57,548 nucleotides of DNA. Source: Flavobacteriales bacterium. Lineage in GTDB: Bacteria > Bacteroidota > Bacteroidia > Flavobacteriales > UBA7312. Location of the stretch: the NCBI GenBank assembly GCA_016779935.1, contig JADHMQ010000012.1:1-57548 (forward strand), read 5' to 3'. The notes beneath the pieces are model-generated. The model was given only the letters and a program-made list of their open reading frames with translations, was not told where the DNA came from and made no database searches. A program made the translations under genes and the position numbers. Below, piece by piece: positions 2 through 4,532 of the stretch (position 1 is its first letter; every line of letters begins with the position of its first letter).

Positions 2-46
2 CCGCAAGAGTTACTTGAAAATATAGGAAAATACGGACTCAATTGA
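2..46 (+). CDS. possible C-terminal end of an unidentified gene entering from the left
   Basis: An open frame runs from the window edge to a TGA at 44-46 and would end in PQELLENIGKYGLN. It is only 14 residues long, so no family can be recognised. If real, it is the last gene of whatever lies left of the tRNA-Asn half at 103-144, which I read as the end of a putative integrated element. It could equally be a chance open frame. Confidence 0.22.
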   Translation, partial: PQELLENIGKYGLN

Positions 47-102: not shown

Positions 103-144
103 CTGTTAATCAGAGGGTCCTTGGTTCGAGCCCAAGAGGAGGAG
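103..144 (+). other. 3' half of a tRNA-Asn gene (attachment-site-like remnant)
   Basis: From 103 on, the spacing is that of a tRNA 3' half: anticodon loop CTGTTAA (103-109, anticodon GTT, Asn), stem half TCAGA, five-base variable loop, T stem CTTGG/CCAAG around TTCGAGC (120-136), acceptor half AGGAGGA and G73 (144). The matching 5' half is absent: nothing upstream pairs with AGGAGGA, and the bases before the loop do not pair with TCAGA. A tRNA cut at the anticodon loop with its 3' end and terminator kept is the usual product left at one end of an integrated element. A simple pseudogene is the alternative. Confidence 0.6.
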
Positions 145-152
145 CAAAAGAT

Positions 153-328: not shown

Positions 329-556
329 ATGAAAAAATTTGGTTCACCTTGGTTTACGGTAGTTTTTATGTTCTCTTCCCTGCTTTTTGTAAAAGGTCAA
401 GATGGAGAGGTTATTTACAAACAAAACTGTACTGCATGTCACAAATTCGGACAAAAGCTAATTGGTCCTGATTTAACTGGGGTCAATGAAAAAAGAAGTG
501 AGGGTTTTACAAGTTCATTGCCTGTTACTACTATTGAAATTATTGGTTTTTTATAA
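329..556 (+). pseudogene. truncated periplasmic cytochrome c (5' part only)
   Basis: Starting at the ATG at 329, the product opens with a signal peptide (MKKFGSPWFTVVFMFSSLLF...) and reaches one haem site CTACH (C34-H38), then GPDLTGV, typical of small class I cytochromes c. Similarity stops at about residue 59 (KRSEG, near base 502). The following residues LPVTTIEIIGFL come from reading the antisense strand of the moeA fragment. The C-terminal half with the Met ligand is missing, so the product is probably not functional. The opening resembles small cytochromes c that accompany respiratory reductases in Bacteroidota, including nos clusters; that assignment is from memory and weak. Confidence 0.75.
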
Positions 557-1056
557 ACCTCTACTTCTGTAACTCCTAAAGCTGAAAGAAAACCTATAGC
601 TGCAGCATTTAGAGTTGTTCCTTTTTGTAATGCTCTTTGTTCTTTTTCTATTTGTTCACCAATTGGTCTTATATTCTGTTTTGGCTTTGGTAATGAATCA
701 ATTATAATTTTATTTCCATTAACACTTACATTTTCTTGCATTACAACAGCTATGGTCTTGCGTGGTATCATTGCTCCAGTAAAAATTCTAAAACACTCTC
801 CATTTTGAAGTGTATGGTTGTGACTATCTCCTGTTTTTATTTCTCCAACTATGTTGAGCTCTGTGTGTTCTTCCGATTCTGAGAAATTAAGAGCATAACC
901 ATCCATAGCGGATTGGTTAAAGGATGGTAGGTTTATGGTACTGTAAATGTCCTGAGCTAAAGTATAACCTAAAGCCTTATTAATATCACACTTCGTTTTA
1001 TTAAGAAAAGAGGTGTTGTTAATAATTATATTTTTTGCTTCTTCAATGGATGTCAT
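439..1056 (-). pseudogene. moeA: truncated molybdopterin molybdenumtransferase MoeA (N-terminal part)
   Basis: MoeA inserts molybdate into adenylylated molybdopterin. The product has the MoeA N-terminus: an EEA-type opening, the segment LPSFNQSAMDGYAL (typical PxFxxSxMDGYA), the GECFRIFTGAMIP segment, IRPIGEQIEKE and IISIVVTGNEL. Similarity ends at VKP, about base 503, where the gene meets the cytochrome c fragment head-on. The last about 20 residues are antisense of that fragment. A full MoeA is about 390-410 residues; only about 185 remain, without the rest of the MogA-like catalytic domain. It is probably inactive. Confidence 0.85.
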
Positions 1057-1099: not shown

Positions 1100-1288
1100 T
1101 TAATTCTCTTTTTGGTCTTTTGTTTTACTCTTTCTAAGAAGTTTGTCTACACCAATCCAAATAAAAATTATTGGCCAGTACACTCGTATTAATTCTCCTA
1201 TTGAAACTTGAATTAAATTGAGGTTGTTAGCTTAAAATAATAAGCCTAAGAGAATAAATAAAATACCGATACTTTTTCCTTTTTCCAT
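1100..1288 (-). pseudogene. small LiaI/LiaF-like (DUF5668) membrane protein with an in-frame stop
   Basis: Translation from the ATG at 1288 gives MEKGKSIGILFILLGLLF, then TAA at 1234-1232. In the same frame it continues ANNLNLIQVSIGELIRVYWP and IIFIWIGVDKLLRK to a stop at 1102-1100, 62 codons in total. The joined product has the two-helix layout of DUF5668 (GILLILLG ... WPLILI.GL.LLL). The TAA replaces what should be a sense codon between the two helices. No frameshift is needed, so this is a nonsense mutation, a sequence error, or a decayed gene. It is too short to appear as one open frame. Confidence 0.6.
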
Positions 1289-1300
1289 AGTTTTCTGTTT

Positions 1301-1492
1301 TTATAAAATCCCTTTTTTGAATAGTCCTTGCTTGGGTTTTTTGTGTTTTTTCTTTAGTTGAGTTTTAGTAAAAAAACTTTCTTTCTTCTTTATTTTACTA
1401 TCGGGTGTACATCCAACAGAGGTACAATTATACTGGCTTTTACACGATGTTAATATTACTATTAACAATAAATATTTAAAAGCTCTTTTCAT
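1301..1492 (-). CDS. small lipoprotein, function unknown
   Basis: The start chosen is the ATG at 1492 (MKRAFKYLLL...), giving 63 residues. A hydrophobic signal with lipobox LTSC places the lipidated Cys near residue 17. The rest is a short, very basic tail (KKKHKKPKQG) with two further Cys in NCTSVGC. A longer start reading MYD is possible by TTG, but the signal peptide favours the ATG. The gene is divergent from rnr. No known domain is recognised. Confidence 0.55.
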   Translation of the reverse strand: MKRAFKYLLLIVILTSCKSQYNCTSVGCTPDSKIKKKESFFTKTQLKKKHKKPKQGLFKKGIL

Positions 1493-1520
1493 GTCATACA
1501 AATTAAGTACAATAAATTCA

Positions 1521-1528
1521 TACTTTCG
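1521..1528 (+). promoter_or_regulatory. -7 promoter element for rnr
   Basis: TACTTTCG matches TAnnTTTG except for one base and ends four bases before the chosen rnr ATG at 1533, so the transcript would be nearly leaderless. Confidence 0.4.
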
Positions 1529-1532
1529 TGAA

Positions 1533-3653
1533 ATGCCAAAAAAAAAGAAAAGAAGGAAAGTAACTAAGCATAGTTTACAGTCTCAAACTTTGAATATTCT
1601 TAGAAAGAATCCTAAAAATTCTTTTAACTACAAACAGATTTCTAAACAATTAGGGTTAGGCGATGAATCCTCCAAATTATTGATACAAGTTGTGCTTAAA
1701 GAACTTGAAGAAAATGAAAAGATTATTTCTGTTAATAGAGGAAAATATAAATTAAAATCACAGTCTTCAGTAGTTGAAGGTATTGTAGATATTACAGCTT
1801 CTGGAAATGCATATGTGGCTATTGAAAATTTAAACGATGATATTTTTGTACACGGAAAATATCTTCCAAATATAGTTAGTGGAGATAGGGTAGAAGTTTT
1901 TGTTTTTTCTTCTTTTAACTCGAGACGATCAGAGGGTGAAATAATAGGAATTATCGAACGAAATACCCATCAATTTGTGGGTAAATTAGAAATATCTAAA
2001 AATTTTGCTTTCGTTAATATTAAAAATCCTAAAATACATTTTGATATTTATATAAATTCAAAAGAAATTACAAACCACAACTTAAAAAATGGTCAATTAG
2101 TGGTTTGTAATATTGATGATTGGGGCGATAAGCGAAACAATCCAAGTGGTACCATAAAAGAGGTGTTGGGTTATCCTGGAGAGCATCATGCCGAAATATA
2201 TTCTATACTGGCAGAACATAATATTGATAAAACTTTTGATAAAAGTATAGAAGAAAAAGCTAAAAGTATTTCTCAAACTATTACAAAAGAAGAAATAAAA
2301 AATAGAAGAGATTTTAGATCTATCACTACATTTACTATAGACCCTTTTGATGCAAAAGATTTTGATGATGCCTTATCAATTCAAAAATTAGAAAATGGTA
2401 ACTACGAAATTGGAATACATATAGCTGATGTTAGTCATTATGTATTAGAAAATGATAGTATTGATAAAGAAGCTCAAGAAAGAGCAACATCCGTATATCT
2501 TGTGGATAGAGTTATTCCTATGCTTCCAGAAATATTATCAAATAATTTATGTTCTCTCAGACCTAATGAGGAAAAATTATGTTTTTCTGCAGTTTTTGAA
2601 ATAAGTATTGAAGGAAAAATTAAAAATGAATGGTTTGGTAAAACAGTTATACTATCTGATAGAAGATTTAACTATGAAGAGGCTCAGGAACGTATAGAAA
2701 CTAAAGAAGGTGACTATTCTTCAGAGTTGTTAATATTAAACAACATAGCCAAACTATTTAGAAAAGAGAGAAAAAATAAAGGAGCTATATCATTCCATAA
2801 AGTAGAAACAAAATTTAAATTAGATGATGATAAAAATCCTATCTCTCTATTTATTAAAGAAAGTAAAGATGCTCATAAATTGATAGAAGAATTTATGCTT
2901 TTAGCTAACCGAAAAGTAGCTGAATTTATAGGTAAAAAATCACTTCCATTTGTTTATAGAATACACGATACTCCTAACCCAGAAAAATTAGAAACACTTA
3001 GTTTTTTCCTTAAGAGCTTTGGATATAAATTACAAACCGAAAACAAAAATAGCATTGCACAATCCATGAATAAAATACTTATGGATGTAAAAGGAAAAGA
3101 TGAAGCCAGTATGATAGAAACTTTAACTATTAGAACAATGGCTAAAGCTATATATTCTACAGAAAATATTGGTCATTACGGATTAGCTTTTAATCATTAT
3201 ACCCATTTTACTTCACCAATTAGACGTTATCCAGATATATTGATTCATAGATTACTTTATCATTATCTAAATAATAACAGTAGAGTGGATAAAGAACGCA
3301 TAGAAAAATTATGTAAACACTCTTCAGAAATGGAAATTATAGCTTCCAAAGCAGAACGTGATTCTATTAAGTATATGCAAACTGTATATATATCAAAGTT
3401 TGTTGGTGAAAAATTAGATGGTATAATATCTGGTGTAACAGACTTTGGAATTTTTGTAGAGGTCAGTAATACTAACTGTGAAGGATTAATACGACTAAAA
3501 GATATTCAAAGCGACTTTTACACTTACGATGAACAAAACTATTGCATAAAAGGTAATCAAACCAACACAGTTTATAGAATAGGAGATAAAGTAAATGTTA
3601 AAATAAGAAAAGTAAATATTGAGAAAAGAGAAATCAATCTTATATTATTATAA
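1533..3653 (+). CDS. rnr: ribonuclease R
   Basis: A 3'-5' processive exoribonuclease that degrades structured RNA. The start is taken as MPKKKKRRK at 1533, because an earlier ATG at 1491 lies inside the divergent lipoprotein gene and upstream of the promoter element. This gives 706 residues. Order of domains: basic N-terminus and winged-helix region (about 10-65), cold-shock/OB domains (about 75-220), RNB catalytic domain (about 255-580) with the acidic signature at residues 270-279 (D-P-F-D-A-K-D-F-D-D), and a C-terminal S1 domain (about 625-705). The Lys-rich tail of the E. coli enzyme is absent. Base composition is clearly more AT-rich than genes after 5.6 kb. Confidence 0.95.
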   Translation: MPKKKKRRKVTKHSLQSQTLNILRKNPKNSFNYKQISKQLGLGDESSKLLIQVVLKELEENEKIISVNRGKYKLKSQSSVVEGIVDITASGNAYVAIENLNDDIFVHGKYLPNIVSGDRVEVFVFSSFNSRRSEGEIIGIIERNTHQFVGKLEISKNFAFVNIKNPKIHFDIYINSKEITNHNLKNGQLVVCNIDDWGDKRNNPSGTIKEVLGYPGEHHAEIYSILAEHNIDKTFDKSIEEKAKSISQTITKEEIKNRRDFRSITTFTIDPFDAKDFDDALSIQKLENGNYEIGIHIADVSHYVLENDSIDKEAQERATSVYLVDRVIPMLPEILSNNLCSLRPNEEKLCFSAVFEISIEGKIKNEWFGKTVILSDRRFNYEEAQERIETKEGDYSSELLILNNIAKLFRKERKNKGAISFHKVETKFKLDDDKNPISLFIKESKDAHKLIEEFMLLANRKVAEFIGKKSLPFVYRIHDTPNPEKLETLSFFLKSFGYKLQTENKNSIAQSMNKILMDVKGKDEASMIETLTIRTMAKAIYSTENIGHYGLAFNHYTHFTSPIRRYPDILIHRLLYHYLNNNSRVDKERIEKLCKHSSEMEIIASKAERDSIKYMQTVYISKFVGEKLDGIISGVTDFGIFVEVSNTNCEGLIRLKDIQSDFYTYDEQNYCIKGNQTNTVYRIGDKVNVKIRKVNIEKREINLILL

Positions 3654-4097: not shown

Positions 4098-4532
4098 ATG
4101 GATAAAAAAATAGGAATAGCATGTGATCATGCAGGTTTTGAATACAAAGAAAAGCTAGTTAAATTATTAGAAAATAAAGGATATTCAGTTACAGATTACG
4201 GCTGTTTTAATGAAGAAAGTGTAGATTATCCAGACTATGCTCACAGTCTAGCAAAATCACTAGAAAATAATGAAAATACAATAGGTATTCAATTTTGTGG
4301 TAGTGGAAATGGAATAAATATGAGTGCTAATAAACACCAAGCTATTCGCTCAGCTTTATGTTGGGAAACCGAAATAGCAGAACTTGCCCGCTTACATAAT
4401 GATGCTAATGTATGTACTATGCCCGCTCGATTTATATCATATCAAAAAGCAGTAGAAATTGTTGAAGTATTTTTATCCACTGAATTCGAAGGCGGAAGAC
4501 ACCAAAGAAGAGTAGATAAAATAAGCTGTTAA
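4098..4532 (+). CDS. rpiB: ribose-5-phosphate isomerase B
   Basis: Interconverts ribose 5-phosphate and ribulose 5-phosphate in the pentose phosphate pathway; some family members act on other sugar phosphates. The 144-residue product is full length for RpiB/LacAB. It shows the N-terminal GIACDHAG (C9-D10-H11), the catalytic Cys67 in FCGSGNG and the phosphate-contacting HND and Arg-rich C-terminal segment (GGRHQRRVDKI). It lies 10 bases before the M28 peptidase gene on the same strand, so the two may be co-transcribed. Confidence 0.93.
   Translation: MDKKIGIACDHAGFEYKEKLVKLLENKGYSVTDYGCFNEESVDYPDYAHSLAKSLENNENTIGIQFCGSGNGINMSANKHQAIRSALCWETEIAELARLHNDANVCTMPARFISYQKAVEIVEVFLSTEFEGGRHQRRVDKISC

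Follow-up and report, generated by a model that had tools for sequence, protein, structure and literature searches.

Near the left end of a contig from a member of the Flavobacteriales, a cytochrome c gene and a moeA gene on the opposite strand run into each other and both cease to resemble their families at the same place, which raises the question of how two genes came to lose their ends at a single point. The contig (C12) belongs to a draft genome of 1.68 Mb in 21 contigs (G000; 99.1% complete, 0.01% contamination), and its bases 1–57548 constitute the window analysed here. The first-pass annotation had described two open reading frames overlapping tail to tail, each lacking its C-terminal part and each reading into a short antisense tail of the other, and had offered a deletion, an inversion or a chimeric assembly as their origin. 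Both frames are present as described (Table 1), and comparison with DNA of a related genome places the break in both similarities at 501–504, within 2–3 bases of the positions first given.

The forward frame begins with a signal peptide (judged by eye), which is followed by the haem-binding motif CTACH, corresponding to the CxxCH signature of class I cytochromes c. It matches the Cytochrom_C profile (PF00034) above the cut-off only at positions 3–43 of 90. Its identity to the 277-residue counterpart in the related genome G006 is 66% over residues 1–58; the similarity stops at codon 58, and the distal, axial-ligand half of a class I cytochrome was not found in the stump. On the reverse strand, the MoeA_N domain (PF03453) is complete (profile positions 2–160 of 160, 2.1e-42), with no match in this frame to PF00994 (domain III, molybdopterin-binding) or PF03454 (domain IV). 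Models of full-length MoeA, comprising about 400 residues, align with the frame at their first 188–202 positions only, and identity to residues 1–184 of the G006 protein is 60%. At the switch point the DNA reads AGTGA, followed directly by GGGTTTTAC. Similarity to the DNA of G006 extends over 103–186, 249–501 (cytochrome side) and 512–969 (moeA side), and then from 1131 onward. A search of IMG/VR with the junction 28-mer, GAAGTGAGGGTTTTACAAGTTCATTGCC, gave no match.

Table 1. Features of the scar, its flanks and the corresponding loci in related genomes (positions refer to the window unless a contig or locus is named).
Feature	Position	Strand	Remarks
Putative C-terminal end of a gene of an integrated element	2..46	+	possible; PQELLENIGKYGLN followed by a stop; cut by contig end; from translation
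3' half of tRNA-Asn, attR of an integrative element	103..148	+	46 bp, one mismatch to the intact copy at C4:8030-8075 of the same genome
ORF, cytochrome c frame	323/329-556	+	overlaps the moeA frame tail to tail
Cytochrome c fragment	329..502	+	first 58 codons
Antisense tail, cytochrome frame	503..556	+	GFTSSLPVTTIEIIGFL; 17 residues translated from moeA antisense
ORF, moeA frame	439-1056	-	
Antisense tail, moeA frame	439..501	-	about 20 residues translated from cytochrome antisense
Deletion junction	501..504	.	cytochrome c similarity stops at 501-502, moeA similarity starts at 502-505; ~21.3 kb of the related island missing
moeA fragment	502..1056 (also given from 505)	-	codons 1-184/185, domains I and II
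Right flank syntenic with G006	1131..1494	.	two blocks, 76% and 73% DNA identity; between scar and RNase R
Second path into the region	1306..1441	.	136 bp identical to the end of C4 of the same genome (L132 1-136)
RNase R, intact	1491..3653	+	right-flank anchor, common to G006, G007, G008 and G002
RpiB, intact	4098..4532	+	right-flank anchor
Cytochrome c gene, G006	C4:119828 (G006)	+	277 aa
moeA, G006	C4:140667-141842 (G006)	-	391 aa
moeA relic, G007	L170:11169-11279		codons 1-39 (37-39 codons); 95% identical to G006

Both fragments have their nearest relatives, within the set of related genomes searched, in G006, a member of the same family. Its cytochrome c gene, which precedes narG, and its moeA gene are whole, convergent and situated on one contig 21.3 kb apart, in the order and orientation seen in the window. 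The interval between them contains the nitrate genes narG, narH, narJ and narI, together with a Crp/Fnr regulator and two NarK transporters; genes of molybdenum cofactor (Moco) synthesis, namely moaA, a fused moaC–moaB, moaE, moeB, a moaD-like frame and mobA; as well as genes for a hemerythrin-type protein, a porin-like protein, a TauE-type permease and a modE-type regulator. NarG (1445 bits), NarH (668 bits) and NarI (134 bits) of G006 exceed the NCBIfam equivalog cut-offs, and the presence of all three identifies the locus as that of a respiratory nitrate reductase. MoaA and MoaCB also exceed their equivalog cut-offs; NarJ, NarK, MoaE and MoeA match NCBIfam models below the cut-off, and the names of the remaining island genes were read from the sequences, not all of them being checked against a model.

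The surroundings of the two loci agree as well. Upstream of its cytochrome gene, G006 carries purN, rnhA, genes for an M1 peptidase and a biotin-carrier protein, pfkB, tRNA-Asn and a GDSL-type gene, and the order from purN to tRNA-Asn is identical on contig C4 of the window's own genome. Downstream of moeA in G006 lie a polysaccharide transporter gene, a sulfotransferase-like gene and the genes of RNase R and RpiB, the last two of which also come after the scar in the window. Since removal of about 21.3 kb from the G006 locus reproduces the window junction, no inversion is needed. The orientation of the genes is unchanged with respect to G006, and, of the origins first proposed, deletion is thus upheld and inversion is rejected.

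The rest of the island was sought in the window's own genome. MoeA_C, NarG and MoaC have no match there, narG, narH and narI were not detected, and a joined query consisting of the C-terminal half of the cytochrome, NarH, NarI, NarK, MoaE, MoeB, MobA and the C-terminal half of MoeA returned only two weak matches on contig C7, at a locus that the family's other genomes share. This absence holds for the island parts named in these queries, which include one of the two NarK transporters. Two candidates for the lost 3' ends were rejected. A PF00994 match on contig C1, considered for moeA, is CinA, the sole PF00994 protein, and the cytochrome match on C7 is a 425-residue frame in one locus with a 994-residue ACIII-type iron-sulfur/molybdopterin-fold protein, which gives the only PF00384 match in the genome. 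No missing 3' end was found elsewhere in the genome; both genes are truncated, as had been claimed.

The best explanation of this arrangement, and one that we hold to be very probable, is a single deletion of an island for nitrate respiration and Moco synthesis, whose breakpoints lie in the two terminal genes of the island and which left the relics of both tail to tail. Both terminal genes are cut at one point, and their order and orientation are those of the intact relative. An ancestor would have carried, between tRNA-Asn and RNase R, an island comprising the cytochrome c gene, narGHJI, the Crp/Fnr regulator, narK genes, the whole Moco pathway and moeA on the opposite strand. A single illegitimate deletion, some 21 kb long, would then have removed everything from cytochrome codon 59 to about moeA codon 185 and joined the two stumps, and the loss would have been tolerated because nitrate respiration was not needed. 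That the event was single, that the ancestral island was of the G006 type and that its loss was tolerated for this reason are all three what we infer from the comparison.

As to the mechanism, the sequence shared at the junction, both here and in the sister species of G006 described below, amounts to at most 1–2 bases, the ancestral sequence of the window junction being only approximated from G006. The breakpoint regions of G006 have no word longer than 9 bp in common, and no att copies flank the island there; because of these features, illegitimate joining would be preferred to homologous or site-specific recombination, and the junction sequences fit such a mechanism. Homologous recombination between repeats was rejected, the longest shared words being of 9 bp and both of these lying away from either junction.

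The window also contains the trace of an integrative element. The tRNA-Asn half at its left end, which ARAGORN did not call as a full tRNA, has its intact counterpart on contig C4 (L132:1–8107), next to about 8 kb of an element that encodes a type III restriction-modification (R-M) system, a resolvase and an excisionase-like HTH protein. The arrangement resembles that of integrative elements inserted at the 3' ends of tRNA genes, with the attR half in the window and the intact tRNA at the other end; this element, which lies next to the scar, is a type III R-M island and did not remove the nar genes. A 98-residue frame at the end of C4, which had no profile, viral or plasmid match, may be the cut N terminus of an integrase. 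In a search of Rfam over 1–1500, no hit exceeded a gathering score. The end of C4 is also identical to a stretch between the scar and the start of RNase R. This second path suggests either another deletion variant, with the element joined directly to position 1306 and the scar skipped, or a stray contig end; the overlap leaves the 501–504 junction untouched.

Clean removal of the island by an integrase at tRNA-Asn is nevertheless brought to mind by the attR-like half in the window and by the position of tRNA-Asn in G006, 1.2 kb upstream of the island. It is very improbable, as the tRNA 3' half occurs in a single copy within 36 kb around the G006 island, not at both of its ends, the cuts lie within coding sequence and differ in position between two species, and the window's att half is part of the other element, the type III R-M one on C4. 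A false bridge between the two stumps, made by the assembler while the island persisted in the cells, has in its favour that the draft consists of 21 contigs, that no more than 500 bases separate the junction from the start of the window's contig and that the overlap with the end of C4 creates competing paths at this very spot. Such an artefact is still improbable: the completeness and low contamination of the genome are hard to reconcile with the lack of every searched island gene on all contigs, and a random chimera would not strike both ends of one syntenic island with order and orientation preserved. Direct repeats longer than 9 bp, which could cause a collapse, are absent between the breakpoint regions of G006, and a sister species has a like loss with another breakpoint.

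A real deletion carried by only part of the population, with the cells that retain the island missing from the assembly, is a variant of the deletion account and does not exclude it. The youthful look of the stumps, which have no stop and keep their conserved residues, and the second junction at position 1306, a hint of structural variation at this spot, would both suit a mixture of strains; as no island sequence was found in the genome, we regard this variant as rather unlikely. The same open frames and conserved residues could also be expected of functional short genes, as domain-sized homologues. This reading has very little probability, since the MoeA stump is devoid of domain III with its molybdopterin site and no other searched Moco gene is left, and since the cytochrome stump retains CxxCH without its distal half. 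MoeA frames have 391–454 residues in all 15 other related genomes with a match.

A single deletion therefore remains the preferred reading; against it stands that G001, the one genome of the same genus, has a completeness of 66% and a contig break at tRNA-Asn. The state of the stumps bears on the age of the deletion. Of 36 residues that 90% of homologues share, the moeA stump keeps 34, a count equal to that of the intact MoeA of G006. It contains no stop and no frameshift (each 1% of neutral change should bring about 0.25 stops), and its differences, sorted by codon position, resemble those in RNase R, in a coding-type pattern. From this intact appearance, the cut would be young relative to the split from G006, with little neutral drift since. 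Because the genome has no nitrate reductase, no other searched Moco gene and no PF00384 Moco enzyme beyond the ACIII-type protein, both stumps are most probably non-functional relics, and the moeA stump in particular would be a pseudogene fragment and not a working member of the MoeA family.

The sister of G006, G007, which is 93% identical to it at the DNA level in this region, offers a second case. It retains pfkB, tRNA-Asn, the GDSL-type gene, the transporter, the sulfotransferase and RNase R, together with a much shorter moeA relic (Table 1). Its junction leads from about 105 bases before the start of the G006 cytochrome gene (C4:119723 of G006, L118:7724) to moeA codon 39 (L119:11726), corresponding to a deletion of about 22.0 kb in G006 numbering. 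RNase R of G006 is 93% identical to that of G007 and 68% to that of the window's genome. With the window's genome so much more distant from G006 and G007 than these two are from one another, the two deletions would be independent, unless G006 regained the island. Thus, the same island appears to have been lost more than once, by different cuts.

In the remaining genomes, the interval from tRNA-Asn to RNase R behaves as a variable spot, empty in G002, occupied by glycosyltransferase-type genes in G008 and by the nitrate island in G006. G002 (L155:4110–4549) has the order pfkB–tRNA-Asn–RNase R with nothing long in between; the glycosyltransferase-type genes of G008 lie at L172:1269–8001. No relics of the nitrate island were detected in either of these two genomes, and NarG is absent from all other family genomes searched, several of which are incomplete. 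In G003 (99% complete, L171:1–1387), tRNA-Asn is found beside a thioredoxin-like gene and a membrane protein gene, with no match to RNase R, a possible rearrangement. A 247-residue acyltransferase-like gene is present in G007 (L170:11282–12136), and only short similar stretches exist in G006 (L118:7480–7724), which suggests that G006 may have lost this gene beside the island.

That nar islands are patchy and can be lost is already known, and no new kind of system is described here. In Thermus thermophilus, the narCGHJIKT cluster is part of a nitrate respiration conjugative element and is distributed patchily between strains (PMC7694296; PMC5748679). The G006 island resembles that nar cluster in having a c-type cytochrome gene first (NarC in Thermus), followed by narGHJI and narK-type transporters, the G006 cytochrome being NarC-like in position. 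It differs from that element in lying at a chromosomal tRNA-Asn with Moco genes of its own and with no conjugative genes seen. In Alteromonas, an ancestral narGHI was lost in most descendants (PMC12388587); that loss was inferred from presence and absence, whereas the present case exposes the very junctions left by deletion.

It is less common for an intact locus to be seen along with the scars of two independent deletions. The loss of nitrate respiration, for which absence is usually the only evidence, is thereby recorded as an event, and a recurrent one. For annotators, the two short frames of the window are to be treated as relics, and Moco synthesis should not be credited to the organism on their account. 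We consider it likely that, within one family, a complete island at tRNA-Asn was repeatedly lost through independent illegitimate deletions with breakpoints at or in its terminal genes, as in G000 and G007. If this is true, the family would provide a natural series in which the loss of the island could be dated and its selection tested.
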